In this document: positions 6,694-49,680 of the stretch, piece by piece
Layout: each line of letters begins with the position of its first letter
Position numbering within the stretch: the first letter of the stretch is position 1
DNA from: Dehalococcoidia bacterium
GTDB taxonomy: Bacteria > Chloroflexota > Dehalococcoidia > E44-bin15
Reading direction: 5' to 3'
DNA: 61,497 nucleotides
Assembly (NCBI GenBank): GCA_035528575.1
Contig: DATKYK010000008.1
Span: 1-61,497, forward strand
Position numbers and translations under genes: made by a program
Notes under the pieces: model-generated
The model's database searches: none
What the model was told of the DNA's origin: nothing
Seen by the model: the letters and a program-made list of their open reading frames with translations, nothing else

Positions 6694-7530
6694 ATGACAG
6701 AAGATATTAGATGTCCCAAATGCGGCTCCAAAACAGTTGTGCGGACAGTAAAAAGAGGCCCGAATGTTAGCCGCTCATTCCATGTATGCACTCGTTACCC
6801 TGAGTGCAAAGGGAAAGTAGCAATAAGAGAGCAAAATGGCACCATTATTCAGGCGAAAGCAGTTCATAAGACCTACGATACGGGCAAGGTGACGGTGGAT
6901 GCCCTCAGGGGTGTTGATCTGAGCATCACGAGGGGGGAGATGGTGGCCGTCATGGGGCCCTCCGGCTGCGGTAAAACAACCCTCCTTAACGTCCTTTCGG
7001 GGCTAGATGATGTTACCAGGGGCAAGGTGGTCATTGATGGTGACTCTATTCACGCTATGTCGGACAAGCAGCGCACCCGCTACCGAGCGGAGAAGATGGG
7101 GTTTGTCTTCCAGTCCTTCAATCTGCTACCGGTCCTCAGCGCCGTGGAGAACGTAGAACTTCCCCTCCTAATGGCCGGGGTGAAGCCAGGGAATGCCCGG
7201 AGGCGGGCACAGGAGGCCCTGGCCCTCGTGGGCCTGGAAGAGGAGGCGCCCAAGCTCCCCGCGGAGATGTCCGGCGGCCAGCAGCAGAGGGCGACTGTCG
7301 CCCGGGCGCTGGTCAATGAGCCAGCCATCGTGTGGGCCGACGAGCCCACGGGCAACCTGGACAGCGAGAATGCTGCCGAGGTAGTTAACCTGCTGTGCAG
7401 GATGAATAAGGAAAAGTCGCAGACCTTCGTCATAGTCACTCATGATATTGCCGTCGGTCGCAAGACGGATCGGATCCTGCGGATGGCGGATGGCCAGATC
7501 GTGGAGGAGCTCCGTATGGGTGGTTGCTAA
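6694..7530 (+). CDS. ABC exporter ATPase with N-terminal zinc ribbon (MacB/LolD type)
   Basis: The 278-residue protein has two parts. Residues 1-45 form a topoisomerase-like C4 zinc ribbon: C7-x2-C10, then C32-x5-C38 in the order RCPKCG ... [10 protein letters not shown]. Residues about 52-275 are an ABC ATPase: Walker [10 protein letters not shown] (88-96), Q-loop at FQSFNLLP, signature MSGGQQQR (192-199), Walker [10 protein letters not shown], and the H-loop in VIVTHD. The ATPase is closest in style to the MacB/LolD/FtsE group that pairs with FtsX-fold permeases, and such a 990-residue permease is encoded two genes downstream. The ATG at 6694 has GGAGAGA upstream and lies downstream of a clear promoter. 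The zinc ribbon is not a normal part of this ATPase family; it may bind nucleic acid, sense metal or mediate contacts. Confidence 0.9.
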
Positions 7531-7582
7531 ACGCTGCTTCAGTTGGCGACGTAGAGAACGCTGCTAGAGTTGGAGGTGAAAT

Positions 7583-7900
7583 ATGTTTGCAAGGATAACG
7601 CTGTTTGAGATCGATACGCTCAGAATCAGCCTGGACGACGCGCTGGAGCGATTTAAAGAGTTAATCGTGCCAGAGGTGCGAAAACGGGAAGGATACGAGG
7701 GTATGTATGTGATGCGCACCCCCGAGGGCAAGGGCCTCATTTTAAGCCTGTGGGCGAGTGAAGAAGCAGCTGCGGCTGGCATAGCGAGTGGATATTACGA
7801 GGAGCAGGTCGCCAAGTTTATGGCCCTGTTTCGCGCGCCGCCTGGTCGTGAGAACTACGAGGTGGTCTTTGCTGAAGCCCCCGGTTTGAAGGGCGACTAA
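7583..7900 (+). CDS. Small ABM-like dimeric alpha-beta barrel protein, 105 aa
   Basis: The size and pattern (MFARITLFEIDTLRIS, amphipathic helix, YEGMYVMRTPEGKGLILSLWAS, helix) fit the antibiotic-biosynthesis-monooxygenase-like ferredoxin fold, which usually works as a dimer. No catalytic residues can be assigned, and many family members have no known enzyme activity. It lies between the ATPase and the permease of the exporter (52 bases after one, 73 before the other) on the same strand, so it is very likely cotranscribed with them. It may be a soluble accessory of the transporter. A GGAGGTG ribosome site precedes the ATG. Confidence 0.65.
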   Translation: MFARITLFEIDTLRISLDDALERFKELIVPEVRKREGYEGMYVMRTPEGKGLILSLWASEEAAAAGIASGYYEEQVAKFMALFRAPPGRENYEVVFAEAPGLKGD

Positions 7901-7973
7901 GTTTCTGTTGTCAAAATGGCTAATCCTGGCTACCAAGAGTAATCGGGTTGACTGAGAGCAATATGAGGAAGTA

Positions 7974-30510: not shown

Positions 30511-31305
30511 ATGGAAACGAAGAAGAGTAATGAGATAAAGAATGCCGTGCGTGAGCTTTACGCCGGGATAGCGAGGCAGCACACGACCTCCTGCTGCGCA
30601 CCGCGGAGCGAAGAGGCGTCGAGCTGTTGTAGCTCATGCGCCGCTGAAACAAGCCATGCTCAGAGGCTATATTCCACAGAGGAGCTGGAATCCATAGCGG
30701 CTGACATACCCTCGCTGGGATGCGGCAACCCTATTGCACTGTCGGAACTGCAGCCCGGAGAAGTGGTACTCGACCTGGGAAGCGGAGGGGGGCTGGACTG
30801 CTTCCTGGCGGCGCAGAAGGTTGGTTCCCAGGGCAAGGTTATCGGGCTGGATATGACACCAGATATGATTAAGCTGGCAAGGGCAAACGCGGAAAAGCTC
30901 TCACTGAGCAATGTCGAGTTTCGGCTGGGCGAGATGGAGTACATGCCCATCGAGAGCGAGTCGGTGGATGTGGTTATCTCCAACTGCGTGATAAACCTTT
31001 CCCCGGATAAGGACGCTGTCTTCAGGGAGGTTTTTCGGGCGCTCAAGCCAGGGGGAAGGCTCTGCGTTTCCGACATCGTCACCCACGGCGAGCTGCCGGC
31101 ATCGGTTCGGGAGAGCCTAGAGCAATGGGCTGGCTGCGTGGCCGGTGCCCTTGAGGAGGGGGAGTACCTGGACAAAATTCAGGCCGCTGGTTTTGTTAGA
31201 CTAGAGGCACAAGAAGAGCCCCCGACCGTCTATAAAGAGGAAACTGCCTGCGGAGTGGGAGCCCCGATAGTCAGCATTGCGGTGAAAGGCTATAAGCCGA
31301 GATAG
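30511..31305 (+). CDS. arsM: Arsenite S-adenosylmethionine methyltransferase ArsM
   Basis: ArsM methylates trivalent arsenic. The Rossmann AdoMet core shows VVLDLGSGGGLDCFLAAQKVG and VIGLDMTPDMIKLARANA. The arsenic-binding cysteines are in place: LGCGNP before the core, ISNCVINLSPDK and QWAGCVAGAL. The N-terminus carries extra cysteine pairs (TSCCAPRSEEASSCCSSC, about residues 27-44) that fit the family. The protein has 264 residues. GGGGTTGAGGA lies upstream of the ATG. No ars efflux gene is adjacent. Confidence 0.92.
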   Translation: METKKSNEIKNAVRELYAGIARQHTTSCCAPRSEEASSCCSSCAAETSHAQRLYSTEELESIAADIPSLGCGNPIALSELQPGEVVLDLGSGGGLDCFLAAQKVGSQGKVIGLDMTPDMIKLARANAEKLSLSNVEFRLGEMEYMPIESESVDVVISNCVINLSPDKDAVFREVFRALKPGGRLCVSDIVTHGELPASVRESLEQWAGCVAGALEEGEYLDKIQAAGFVRLEAQEEPPTVYKEETACGVGAPIVSIAVKGYKPR

Positions 31306-31404
31306 TCGTCCCAGACATACCAATTGCATCACAAAACAAAATACTCTAGCAACTGCAACTGCGTGTTTTAACCTCTGTGATTGAAACACCCCCATAGGAG
31401 CGTA

Positions 31405-31950
31405 ATGATGACCGAGGAAGAATCTAAATCCAGGAACGATTTCATCAAGGTATTCGAAGAAAAAACAAGAGAGGTTTTCAGCTCAGAGGCTAATCGAGAA
31501 AGGGTGGGAGAGCTAACATACAATAACTACTTGAAATGCTTTGGCTGCTCTCAATCTATGCTGCATGCTTTTCAAGAGGTTTTAGGGTTTAAGGACGATT
31601 TTTGGTTCAAGGCGCTGGGTGGCCTGCAAGGGGGAGGTAGTAGTGGATTGACCTGTGGTGCATTGCTTACGGGTTTCGTACTCATCAGCGCTAGAGTAGG
31701 GCGAAGCAATATTGAAGATGGTCTTGTAGCATTACTACCAGCCTTCGAGCCATCCCATAGACTGACCAACTGGTTTAAACCCATGTACAAGAGTACTGTC
31801 TGCTCGGAGATTACGGGGGTCAACTGGTTTGACCTGAATGAGGTGACAGAACACTACCTCAGCCCTCGGGGAATGGAAACGGTGGAAAAATGTGCCAGGC
31901 TAACGGGCGGGACAGCCAGCAAGGTAGCAGAGATACTGAGCCAGTTGTAG
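31405..31950 (+). CDS. C_GCAxxG_C_C family redox protein
   Basis: A 181-residue member of the C_GCAxxG_C_C family, thought to bind a redox-active metal centre. Visible motifs are KCFGCSQSMLHAFQEV near residue 41, the glycine-rich GGLQGGGSSGLTCGALLTG, the later STVCSEITGVNWFD and KCARLTGGTASKVAEIL. The Cys spacing agrees with the family. Its function is unknown. Start: ATG at 31405 or 31408 behind AGGAG; a TTG at 31381 overlaps the ribosome site. It follows arsM by about 100 bases, and between it and the next gene lies a relic of a second arsM-like gene. Confidence 0.8.
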   Translation: MMTEEESKSRNDFIKVFEEKTREVFSSEANRERVGELTYNNYLKCFGCSQSMLHAFQEVLGFKDDFWFKALGGLQGGGSSGLTCGALLTGFVLISARVGRSNIEDGLVALLPAFEPSHRLTNWFKPMYKSTVCSEITGVNWFDLNEVTEHYLSPRGMETVEKCARLTGGTASKVAEILSQL

Positions 31951-31967
31951 TATAGGCAAATCAACAA

Positions 31968-32063
31968 TTAAGGGGAAGTTTGGTGCTTTATCGTGTTCTA
32001 ACTGTCTGCGAAGGTCAGAGCTCTATAGCAAGCATATCGGTGAAAGCCTTCAAACCTGAGTAG
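31968..32063 (+). pseudogene. Relic of the 3' end of an arsM-like gene
   Basis: Reading from 31968 to the TAG at 32061 gives a C-terminal tail (VCEGQSSIASISVKAFKPE). It lines up with the end of the ArsM gene upstream (GAPIVSIAVKGYKPR) and with the closing SIxSxxVKAxKP of other ArsM proteins. The body of the gene is absent. It overlaps the 3' end of the minus-strand gene at 32050. It suggests that a second methyltransferase was lost, perhaps replaced by the C_GCAxxG gene. Confidence 0.5.
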
Positions 32064-32775
32064 TCTCCCCGCTAGAATCCCTTAGACGCTGCCCCATGCC
32101 CCACTGGCGCTCCAGCTCCCTGAGCGCCTTTTTTGTATCGCTGGCAATGCGCGCCTTATCAGAGTTGTTTAACCGATACTTGAAGAGCCAGTAGGTAAAC
32201 TCCTTAAGCTCAACGAGTTTCATAGAATTGCGCCTGGGATAGCCCCTTTCTTTTCTGAATCTCCCAAGCAATTCGGTTATGGGGGCGCCATATATGCGCT
32301 CGTAGGCCTCCTCCCAGAGGCTATTGTTCTCATTAAAGGCACGTGCTCGCTGTTCCTTGCGTGCTTCCTCCTCCACAGCGAGTAGCAATGCCTCCTCTAC
32401 GGTGATACCGTAGAAATAGTTGAGGTGAGCGCGGTATTTGGCCTCGCCGATGAGCTGGCAGAATTCCTCTTTAGGTAGCTCAATGGGTGCTCTGGCGTGG
32501 AAGAGAAGAGCGAGCATTTCTTTCTCAGGAATGAGATGATCGATCTCAGCGAGCAGGCGCTCAGCAAGGAGCAACCAGTCGAAGGCTTCGTTGGCGATGA
32601 GATAGCGATAATCCCGGCCGTTGTGGCTCTCCTCGGCCACAGTCCACTGCCCGATAGCCTCGAGGAGGGCAATATACCAGTGCTTTCCGTTTGCGATGTC
32701 CTCCCTTAGATGGCGAATCGCCTCGCTACCGTTCGAGACGCTGGTATCACCGAAGGGCTGTAAATGCTTCTCCAT
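32050..32775 (-). CDS. Conserved-looking protein of unknown function, 241 aa
   Basis: I do not recognise this protein. It is mostly helical and charged, with no signal or membrane segment. Landmarks are HWYIALLEAIGQWTVAEE, YRYLIANEAFDWLLLAERLL, YRAHLNYFYGITVEEALLLAVEEE and a basic C-terminal third with MKLVELKEFTYWLFKYRL. The stop of polX lies ten bases upstream on the same strand, so the two are probably cotranscribed, and a role with the polymerase in DNA maintenance is possible but unproven. Confidence 0.65.
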   Translation of the reverse strand: MEKHLQPFGDTSVSNGSEAIRHLREDIANGKHWYIALLEAIGQWTVAEESHNGRDYRYLIANEAFDWLLLAERLLAEIDHLIPEKEMLALLFHARAPIELPKEEFCQLIGEAKYRAHLNYFYGITVEEALLLAVEEEARKEQRARAFNENNSLWEEAYERIYGAPITELLGRFRKERGYPRRNSMKLVELKEFTYWLFKYRLNNSDKARIASDTKKALRELERQWGMGQRLRDSSGETTQV

Positions 32776-32785
32776 GCCACTCTCG

Positions 32786-34504
32786 CTATCGCCTCAAGAA
32801 GGCAAGCACCTCTTCAAGTGGCCTTGTATTCAATATATGGCTTGCTTCGCACCAACCGCGCCGAGCCACACCTACCCCGAAGCGAACCAGGTCAAGGTGC
32901 GAGGTGCTATGGGCATCAGTAACCACGGTCAGCTTCACCCCCAGCTCCATGGCCCGAAGGGCATGAATATCCTTTAGGTCGAGGCGACTTGGCATGGCGT
33001 TTATCTCCAGTGCGGTGTTGGTCTCAGCGGCGGCGCGGAAGACCGCCTCAAGGTCCACCATAATTGGCTCACGCTCCCCCAGGAGTCGGCAGGTGGGATG
33101 AGCGAGAACATCGACGTGGGGGCTCTTTATGGCACGAAGGATACGCTCCGTCATCTTGCCCTGCTCCTGGTTCATCGCCGAGTGTACCGCTGCGATAACG
33201 ATGTCCAGCTCTGAAAGCAGATCCTCAGGGAGGTCCAGGGTGCCATCGGCACGAATATCCACCTCGATCCCGGCGAGGATGCGGAAACCATCCACCTGCT
33301 CATTGAGCTTGCCTATTTCGGTGATCTGTTTTCGTAACCTTTCCTCATCTAGCCCGTGTGCTACACCTCGCCCTGCTGAGTGGTCGGTTATGGCGATATA
33401 CTTATATCCACGTTCCCTGGCGGCAAGAGCCATCGCCTCGATGGAATCGTGGCCATCGCTCCAATCGGTGTGTACATGGAGGTCTCCCTTTATATCGCCA
33501 GGCTCGATGAGACGGGGGATATCATTTTCCGCTGCCCTCTCCACCTCCCACTGCCCTTCCCTGAGCTCGGGCGGGATGAACTGTAGACCCAGCCTCCGGT
33601 AGAAGGACTCCTCATCGGTGAACTTCTCGGTGATGCCGCTCTCTAGGTCGGTCATCCCGTATTCGCTGAGCCTTAGCCCCTGGCGGTGTCCACGCTCCCT
33701 GATGGCGATGTTGTGCTGTTTTGAGCCGGTGAAATACTGGAGCAGTGAGCCAAAAGAGTCGTGGTCTACCAGCCTGAGGTCGATCTGGAGGTCGCCGGGG
33801 ACGAGCACACTGGCCTTGGTACTCCCCTTGACCAGCGTCTCCTTAACCCGGGGCAGGCTAACGAAGGCACTAATAATACCTTCACGGTCATCGGCGGTAC
33901 CCATGAGGTCGATGTCGCCGACGGTCTCGCGGAAGCGGCGCAGGCTTCCCGCCGGGGTGAGATTCTTAAGGCCGGGGCGTTCTCGAAGCTCCCGCATGAT
34001 CCCCTCGACCACCGGTAGCGCGTCTCCGATAGGGGTGCGCCGCTCCTTGGTTCGCGTTGCCTGAAGCTGGCGCAGGATATTCTCCGCCACCTTGTCGCCC
34101 ATACGGGGCATGCTGGCTAACCGCCCATCGCGGATTGCCGCTTCAAGGTCATCGATGCTGTTTACCCCCAGCTCATTGCAGAGGCGGATGGCGATCCTGG
34201 GGCCGATGCCGGGGATATCGAGGAGGGTGCTTATTCCCTCGGGGAACTCTGCCCTTAGCTCATCGTAGTAATGGAGGCGACCGGTGGTCACGAGCTCCAT
34301 TGTTTTCTTGGCGATGGCCTCACCCACGCCGGGGATTTCCTCCAGGCTCTGCCCCTCCTTTACCATCTGCTCTACTTCCACCGGCAGGTGCTCGATGGTG
34401 CGGGTTGCCCGCTGATAGGCGCGGATCTTGAACTGGTTCTCGCCCTTTATCTCCAGCAGGTCGGCGATATCCGAGAAGACCTTCGCGATGTCGCTGTTTT
34501 TCAT
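32786..34504 (-). CDS. polX: DNA polymerase X with PHP exonuclease domain
   Basis: A 572-residue family X polymerase for repair gap filling. The N-terminal 8-kDa-like region and HhH motifs (IPGVGEAIAKK, IPGIGPRIAIRL) lead into the nucleotidyl core with GSLRR, ETVGDIDLM (two catalytic Asp) and LQIDLRLVD (third Asp). The C-terminal PHP domain (about 335-572) has DLHVHTDWSDG, ITDHS, GIEVDI, AVHS and VDVLAHPTCR, with the metal-binding residues preserved, so a 3'-5' exonuclease activity is likely. Length is typical. It heads the pair with the unknown protein at 32050-32775. The EVE protein gene ends 24 bases upstream. Confidence 0.93.
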   Translation of the reverse strand: MKNSDIAKVFSDIADLLEIKGENQFKIRAYQRATRTIEHLPVEVEQMVKEGQSLEEIPGVGEAIAKKTMELVTTGRLHYYDELRAEFPEGISTLLDIPGIGPRIAIRLCNELGVNSIDDLEAAIRDGRLASMPRMGDKVAENILRQLQATRTKERRTPIGDALPVVEGIMRELRERPGLKNLTPAGSLRRFRETVGDIDLMGTADDREGIISAFVSLPRVKETLVKGSTKASVLVPGDLQIDLRLVDHDSFGSLLQYFTGSKQHNIAIRERGHRQGLRLSEYGMTDLESGITEKFTDEESFYRRLGLQFIPPELREGQWEVERAAENDIPRLIEPGDIKGDLHVHTDWSDGHDSIEAMALAARERGYKYIAITDHSAGRGVAHGLDEERLRKQITEIGKLNEQVDGFRILAGIEVDIRADGTLDLPEDLLSELDIVIAAVHSAMNQEQGKMTERILRAIKSPHVDVLAHPTCRLLGEREPIMVDLEAVFRAAAETNTALEINAMPSRLDLKDIHALRAMELGVKLTVVTDAHSTSHLDLVRFGVGVARRGWCEASHILNTRPLEEVLAFLRR

Positions 34505-34528
34505 GAGCCCGATGCCATCTTTAATGCG

Positions 34529-35413
34529 TTAGCATTTGATCCCCAATTCTTTTTCAAGATCAAAATAGGCTTTTTTGCGGTCATAAAGTTCATCTATTTT
34601 TCCTAACTCAACAAATTTTAGCCTATTATCAATCTCATGAAATGTCCCAGAAAGCAGATTTTCAACCTTTTCATGATCTGACTCAGATGCCACGATATAT
34701 ATATGACTGTTCCACAAATCAAACGCGTGCTTTAATTTACCGAGAGCATGTTCTACATCGCCACCAACTTGAACCTCAAAAACGTAAGTTGGCACGGAAT
34801 GGGCTAGTTTTCGCCATACAGCATCAAGCCTACTTGTTTTACTGCCTATCTTAATTGGGTATTCAGAATCGGCAAGGAAGCCCTGAATTCTCCCAATTTC
34901 AACCAATCTTAATTTCACTTCGTTATGGGAAGGTATAAATGGGGTTTCAGCCTCAGCCACTCGCATTCTATCCGGCTCTGATAGCTTTTGCACGTAATCC
35001 GTTGGCTGGATAGATTGGAGTTGGGAAATAAGCCAGTTGGCCATATACTCGTTAAGAAGTTGGAAACCTGAACGCGTGCGTTTCTTTAAATCCTCTGAAA
35101 TTATTCTGGATTTAATCCATTCAGCATATGGCAAACACTTCTCTACATCGAACTCTAATCGCAGTGACCAAATTACTCGTTCCTCTTTTATTTCCTGAGG
35201 CCAGAGTGGCTTATCCTGATAAAACTTCGTTTTTACAACCCCATAACCAATAACACCAATTACTGGTTGCGTAGCATAAAAGAATATAATATCGTTCTCA
35301 CATAACTCATCCCATAGGTGTCTCTGCGTTTGCTTAAGACCCCAGATATTCTGATAACTAAAAGCGGTTTTCCAATTCTCAGGTGAACCCACAGCTAACC
35401 AGTAATTTGCCAT
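34529..35413 (-). CDS. EVE domain fused to PD-(D/E)XK nuclease-like domain
   Basis: A 294-residue protein with two domains. Residues about 1-135 resemble an EVE/PUA-like fold: a start MANYWLAVGSPENWKTAF, aromatic pocket region NIWGLKQTQRHLWDEL, DIIFFYATQPVIGVIGYGVV and LRLEFDV. EVE domains read modified bases. Residues about 165-245 fit a PD-(D/E)XK nuclease: SRLDAVW (D197), TYVFEVQVGGD (E213-x-Q215), helix HALGKLKHAFDLW and strand HIYIVASE. The ExQ variant is known in nuclease subfamilies. The gene is AT-rich compared with polX and secA and has no partner genes, signs of transfer. The likely role is a modification-dependent restriction enzyme or RNA/DNA processing nuclease; this is inference. 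GAAGGTAG precedes the ATG. Confidence 0.75.
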   Translation of the reverse strand: MANYWLAVGSPENWKTAFSYQNIWGLKQTQRHLWDELCENDIIFFYATQPVIGVIGYGVVKTKFYQDKPLWPQEIKEERVIWSLRLEFDVEKCLPYAEWIKSRIISEDLKKRTRSGFQLLNEYMANWLISQLQSIQPTDYVQKLSEPDRMRVAEAETPFIPSHNEVKLRLVEIGRIQGFLADSEYPIKIGSKTSRLDAVWRKLAHSVPTYVFEVQVGGDVEHALGKLKHAFDLWNSHIYIVASESDHEKVENLLSGTFHEIDNRLKFVELGKIDELYDRKKAYFDLEKELGIKC

Positions 35414-35670
35414 TATGCTACCTTCTCAACATACGTTGATAATCAGAATACCTGTTACCCAGCTTCATCTACATCATCCCAGCAACGTAAGTGACAGGCG
35501 TATTTCATACATGAACCCCAGAAGGTTATTAGATCTTCGTGTTCCGGGCCTCTTATCCATCCCTCGGCTACAACAACCACCGGCTGATTGCGTCTCATTG
35601 GTTTTCCGCACTTAATCACAGGTATGAACGCCTAACTTAGCCTCCATATGTCACCTTCCCTATCACTTCA

Positions 35671-38283
<2,613 letters not shown>

Positions 38284-49409: not shown

Positions 49410-49680
49410 GGCCGTGCACCCACTGTCGACCCTGCCCCCTGGCTTGCCCCCTGCCAGCCAGCTCTGACCAGGCAGCCCTGCGGCACCCAGAAGACGCTAC
49501 TTACCGCTGCTTCCTTCCGGACCTGACGGGGTTCATAGCCTACTGCCGCGCAGGACCCAGTCTTCAACGCCACTTAGTAGAGACAGTCCCAAAGGGCTCA
49601 AGACCTCGAGAGGGAGTTCCGCCCCGCTATAGCGGATTGCGGGTACAGGGCACCGCTAGCTCCCCGCCTAGCACGACCTC
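49410..49680 (-). ncRNA. ffs: Signal recognition particle RNA, large bacterial type
   Basis: On the minus strand the domain IV motif GTCAGGTCCGGAAGGAAGCA (49537 to 49518) is unmistakable. The 5' half carries the Alu-domain text of large Gram-positive type SRP RNAs, including CCCTGTACCCGCAATCC. The ends pair: GGTCGTGC at the 5' end with GCACGGCC at the 3' end, followed by seven Ts. The length is about 270 nt. A perfect promoter stands at the right distance. Confidence 0.95.

Follow-up and report, generated by a model that had tools for sequence, protein, structure and literature searches.

A predicted EVE-PD-(D/E)XK endonuclease in the variable secA-polX interval of Dehalococcoidia

Gene and Genome Setting

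The window, that is, the whole analysed stretch of 61,497 nucleotides from a Dehalococcoidia bacterium (contig DATKYK010000008.1), carries between secA and polX a gene encoding a two-domain protein. The features at the locus are as follows, the two flanking genes having been named by reading their sequences.

32786-34504, minus strand: PolX-type DNA polymerase with PHP domain, right flank of the slot (ORF, synteny)
34505-35670, no strand assigned: secA-polX slot, a variable cargo site across Dehalococcoidia (slot lengths in 53 loci, cargo, control slots)
34529-35413, minus strand: EVE-PD-(D/E)XK fusion gene, 294 aa (ORF list, Pfam EVE, AF2 model with pLDDT 88.7, single copy)
34532-34945, minus strand: PD-(D/E)XK nuclease domain, residues 157-294, with E184, D197 and E213-x-Q215 (model pLDDT 95.4, aligned chains, invariant residues)
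34979-35407, minus strand: EVE/PUA-like reader domain, approximately residues 3-145 (PF01878, structure match, invariant Trp residues)
35671-38283, minus strand: SecA, left flank of the slot (ORF, synteny)

The ORF of the EVE nuclease starts with ATG, with a Shine-Dalgarno-like GAGAAGG 5' of the start codon, and is the sole copy in the 2.3 Mb genome. A preliminary description of this DNA had pointed to an AT-rich gene in a GC-richer stretch with no methylase beside it, and both observations held: GC content is 39.8% in the gene versus 59.0% in polX, 57.3% in secA and 54.1% in the window, and the ORF list of the window contains no methylase between ValS and ECH. A C5 methylase (PF00145) is likewise absent from the host genome. 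Values of dN/dS among the homologues are about 0.08-0.14, indicating that the protein is maintained by purifying selection. Searches of PADLOC and PHROGs with the protein matched no model, and NCBIfam returned just a weak PRK00809 match on the EVE stretch.

Elsewhere in the window, the stretch between valS and the polX cluster (30511-31950) encodes a 189-aa protein and an ArsM-like methyltransferase that carries Cys-Cys motifs (SCCAPRSEEASSCC) and recurs at this position in further genomes of the family, and a bacterial large SRP RNA was detected at 49412-49676 (Rfam RF01854, 201.6 bits).

Domain Architecture of the EVE Nuclease

The N-terminal half, previously proposed to be an EVE reader, was matched by Pfam EVE (PF01878) over residues 3-83 (25.5 bits, E 1.5e-5) above the curated cut-off of 23. 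The full-length model (pLDDT 88.7) shows an EVE/PUA barrel and a separate C-terminal domain, linked by a low-confidence stretch at residues 139-156. The top structures for this model were 1wmm (PH1033, VIA Z 15.1), 2hd9 (14.6) and 2p5d (14.2), and YTH domains reached Z of about 12-13 (~12.8) against the full-length model. As modelled, the N-terminal fold is a PUA-superfamily beta-barrel, with EVE proteins as its nearest relatives. Residues W24 and W71, which are invariant in 21 homologues, diverged N-termini included, align with conserved Trp residues of the Mmi1 YTH domain in a weak match (E 0.72), and would form a putative aromatic base pocket.

Since EVE, YTH and ASCH proteins alone were among the matches listed for the full-length model, the C-terminal nuclease domain was predicted and searched alone, using 17 diverse homologues (pLDDT 95.4). 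The modelled order is helix 163-176, strand 180-189, strand 192-201 (D197), strand 210-215 (E213, Q215), helix 220-234 and strand 237-242, and DSSP assignments on two models gave the canonical alpha-beta-beta-beta-alpha-beta order of PD-(D/E)XK nucleases. In these models strand 2 carries D197 and strand 3 carries E213-x-Q215, the usual places of the superfamily motif. The best VIA match was AF1548 (Z 8.9, rmsd 4.0, 112 aligned residues), and the top of the list consists mainly of PD-(D/E)XK proteins, namely AF1548, VC1899, Can2, EcoT38I, FokI, XisH, Card1, BsaWI, MspJI and McrC, with Can2, EcoT38I, FokI, XisH and others at Z 7-8. Foldseek against PDB chains gave no strong match (best E 8e-3). 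The single fold scores are moderate, and it is the consistency of the list that carries weight; because of these moderate scores (Foldseek E 8e-3, VIA Z 8.9), the fold assignment rests on topology and motif. The model of the C-terminal domain is itself of high confidence and shows a PD-(D/E)XK nuclease, with D197 and E213-x-Q215 placed as the preliminary description had them. A glutamine at the lysine place, as in this E-x-Q variant of the active site, has been documented for BglII and NotI (PMC4081073).

The nuclease domain is without a match among the models of Pfam, NCBIfam, PADLOC and PHROGs. The Mrr catalytic-domain profile gave no match, EVE being the sole Pfam match at E up to 10, and no HNH nuclease was matched by Pfam in the protein, the domain modelling instead as PD-(D/E)XK.

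Homologues and Domain Swapping

One scan of genome contigs recovered 24 relatives, chiefly from Dehalococcoidia MAGs, with a few from Planctomycetota, Desulfobacterota, Poribacteria and archaea. Invariant positions in 21 aligned proteins are W24, G25, W71, H163, G174, E184, D197, W200, E213 and G218, together with the L227-N235 stretch and G256/F258/H259/E260; Q215 comes close to invariance. The E-x-Q motif, H163, E184, W200 and a K-L-K-H-A-F-D-L-W-N helix are conserved in the nuclease family, and D197 and E213 do not vary, and Q215 hardly does, even where the N-terminus is of another kind.

The nuclease domain is joined to several partners. It occurs with Mrr_N (PF14338, E down to 6.5e-17) in three Dehalococcoidia proteins (L045, L046, L047), with a diverged EVE in L044, also from Dehalococcoidia, behind an unnamed N-terminus in the 317-aa frame of L048, and, in three archaeal proteins (L023-L025), with a PUA-like N-terminus that has diverged but retains W24 and W71. 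Modification-dependent restriction usually pairs a cutter with readers that can be exchanged, as in SRA, EVE, YTH and winged-helix fusions, and the Mrr_N, diverged EVE and PUA-like partners are as expected of such a cutter.

Distribution is sparse. Near-full-length copies were found in approximately 12 of 393 genomes of the class, few relatives within the own family carry the gene, and the nuclease domain is present in just 5 of 400 genomes across the phylum. Neither the full protein nor the nuclease domain was found in searches of phages, plasmids and viral contigs; a Mrr_N relative used as query gave matches on plasmids to the Mrr_N region alone and none in phages. The gene is often lost in Dehalococcoidia. 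Frameshifted, split or internally deleted copies were observed in L005 (frameshift, 7034-7963), L042 (split), L043 and L073, which suggests repeated loss, or MAG errors.

Conservation and Cargo of the secA-polX Slot

At least 10 other Dehalococcoidia genomes have the EVE-nuclease gene, or a broken copy of it, downstream of secA, usually with polX next, and a further secA-linked copy is present in L064. In loci long enough to show it, the usual order is secA, EVE-nuclease gene, polX, a conserved protein of ~240 aa and valS; in the window the ~240-aa protein, which follows polX in most Dehalococcoidia loci examined, lies at 32050-32775. Distances between EVE-nuclease proteins correlate with those between SecA proteins (r 0.697, permutation p 0.0004, 11 genomes), indicating that the gene is mostly inherited in place and evolves faster than SecA. 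The AT-richness of the gene is real, but recent import in isolation was rejected as the whole story, given the conserved position and the correlated distances. Direct repeats, a sign of mobile elements, were not found at the slot edges.

In order to characterise the slot, polX loci were fetched irrespective of cargo, and the 53 with both flanks were measured. The secA-polX gap is bimodal, with 22 loci below 250 bp and 31 ranging from 476 to 5467 bp, whereas the prs-secA gap taken as control has a median of 25 bp and a maximum of 998 bp. The EVE nuclease fills 7 of the 31 filled slots, and those seven came from the EVE search; the slots without it are 22 empty and 24 filled. Restriction or modification-reader genes were found in 14 of these 24. 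They include an N4/N6 methylase with an MvaI/BcnI endonuclease (L104), a methylase with a BsaWI endonuclease in two Pfam-scanned slots (L117, L127), the same pair in three slots assigned by sequence and methylase count (L119, L121, L134), methylases with NucS/YhcG-like proteins (L133, L135), a DpnII/MboI-like endonuclease (L138), GmrSD_N with a HEPN-like or short neighbour (L105, L143, L159), and EVE proteins scoring below (L107) or above (L115) the cut-off. PADLOC recognised type II methylases in 8 of 48 slot cargo proteins. Non-defence cargo, such as an AMP-binding enzyme and regulators, also occupies the slot.

The control slots prs-secA, polX-hyp241 and hyp241-valS contained, among others, ArsM-like methyltransferases, universal stress proteins, a transporter and hydrolases of the HAD and metallo-beta-lactamase types, and restriction genes were found in 0 of 28 filled ones; in the Pfam assignment of this control cargo, 25 of 48 families were taken from the listing and the remainder was judged by sequence. 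The difference (14/24 vs 0/28) gives a Fisher p of 1e-6, a value in which independence is overstated by the shared ancestry of some filled slots. The secA-polX interval in Dehalococcoidia behaves as a restriction hotspot that is either empty or occupied by alternative restriction modules. Nothing specific on a Dehalococcoidia or secA defence hotspot was found in the literature searched.

Some of the cargo is unnamed. A protein of 344-349 aa with an N-terminal EVE-like domain and ~240 unassigned residues (L107, 381-1901; L115, 7764-8813), followed in L107 by an unnamed 155-aa protein, is a candidate defence gene. In L133 (3134-5526) and L135 (1919-4313), the neighbours of an N4/N6 DNA methylase are two NucS-like proteins, one of 350-358 aa that weakly matches YhcG_C/NucS_C and one of 136 aa that weakly matches NucS_C, and the three are possibly an unusual restriction-modification system. 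In L120 (615-3135), a 633-aa HATPase_c_3 protein is paired with a 209-aa HVO_A0261_N-like protein.

Proposed Function and Alternative Explanations

The protein is probably a solitary, type IV-like DNA endonuclease that depends on base modification, and its gene one of several restriction modules that can take each other's place in the secA-polX slot. The EVE domain would bind DNA and flip a modified base into the aromatic pocket, and the PD-(D/E)XK domain, with D197 and E213 holding Mg2+ and Q215 at the usual lysine place, would cut near that base. As cutting would be limited to modified DNA, a partner methylase would not be needed. Domain identities, conservation, purifying selection, and the variability and cargo of the slot were computed; cutting, substrate, the nature of the base and a role against phage are inferred. 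Two independent lines support the prediction of modification-dependent restriction already made in the preliminary description: the exchange of readers (Mrr_N, other PUA-like domains) and what relatives carry in the slot. The sparse spread, the lack of a neighbouring methylase and the low dN/dS count for it as well. Against it count the moderate fold scores of the nuclease, the non-defence cargo in the slot and the co-variation with SecA, a sign of stabler inheritance than that of typical mobile defence genes.

The recognised base is not indicated by C5 methylase, which occurs in 2 of 11 carriers of the EVE nuclease and 5 of 32 non-carriers; as a clue to the base, its co-occurrence was discarded as uninformative. 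VcaM4I, an EVE enzyme, recognises 5mC and 5hmC (PMC7897488), but the present model also resembles YTH domains that read m6A.

A nuclease with an EVE/YTH-like reader might instead act on modified RNA, from tRNA or phage, as an effector that targets RNA or aborts infection. RNA, too, is bound by EVE and YTH domains, the YTH readers (Z 12-13) are nearly level with EVE in the model comparison, and a similar nuclease fold is found in the chains of Can2 and Card1, enzymes able to act on substrates beyond double-stranded DNA. This alternative is nevertheless unlikely, as other proteins combine the nuclease domain with Mrr_N, a winged-helix domain of DNA restriction, the slot cargo of relatives is mostly DNA restriction, and no RNA-metabolism operons were found around the homologues. 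The position of polX, 25 bp downstream of the gene in the window and adjoining it in several Dehalococcoidia loci, would suit a DNA repair endonuclease making nicks where bases are damaged or modified, with PolX taking over from it. Such a role is disfavoured and has little probability: secA and polX are also adjacent where the EVE nuclease is missing (22 empty slots, and others with restriction systems), outside Dehalococcoidia the gene does not lie next to polX, several carriers have polX on another contig, and the gene is rare. Just as improbable is a nuclease, sequence-specific or not, that uses EVE as a mere DNA-binding module and requires no modified base. Winged helices joined to the same nuclease domain might read sequence, but cutting at unmodified sites would endanger a host with no adjacent protecting methylase, and even diverged N-termini retain W24 and W71 without exception.

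Returning to modification-dependent DNA restriction, the PD-(D/E)XK nuclease family appears uncatalogued and the secA-polX slot appears undescribed so far. More tentatively, and less likely than not, the C-terminal domain could found an uncatalogued reader-swapping PD-(D/E)XK family (EVE, Mrr_N, archaeal PUA-like) that cuts at a modification beyond those of characterised EVE enzymes, with secA-polX as an undescribed restriction hotspot. If the main reading is right, a nuclease family with exchangeable modified-base readers would be suited to testing which EVE reads which base, and the marker-flanked slot, its unnamed cargo included, would offer a place to look for restriction systems in a class with few cultures.

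Comparison with Known Systems

The suggestion that the architecture was under-described proved overstated. EVE-PD(D/E)XK is already listed as a core, putative type IV architecture by Bell, Wolf and Koonin (2020, PMC7641849), so the architecture is not new, and the protein described here resembles that class in its EVE reader, its PD-(D/E)XK cutter and its predicted modification-dependent restriction. That source names the architecture class, whereas the nuclease here is without a Pfam, NCBIfam or PADLOC model and has E-x-Q; the parts consulted are silent on the secA-polX slot. No characterised EVE-PD(D/E)XK enzyme was found in the literature searched, which is not proof of absence.

Among characterised enzymes, VcaM4I (EVE-HNH, PMC7897488) is similar in its N-terminal EVE sensor of comparable length, linker, C-terminal nuclease and lack of a methylase, but its nuclease is HNH and not PD-(D/E)XK. 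Its pocket residues P24, W82 and Y130 would at best be partly matched by the proposed W24/W71, and its absence among the fold matches listed excludes nothing. Mrr-type enzymes combine a Mrr_N winged helix with a nuclease, and homologues of the present nuclease domain carry Mrr_N; unlike them, the nuclease here has no Mrr catalytic-domain match and its reader is EVE. MspJI and PvuRts1I read through SRA rather than EVE, and the structural score is low (MspJI, VIA Z 6.2), with no sequence match found, but they share with the protein described here the combination of a PUA-superfamily modified-base reader and a PD-(D/E)XK cutter.
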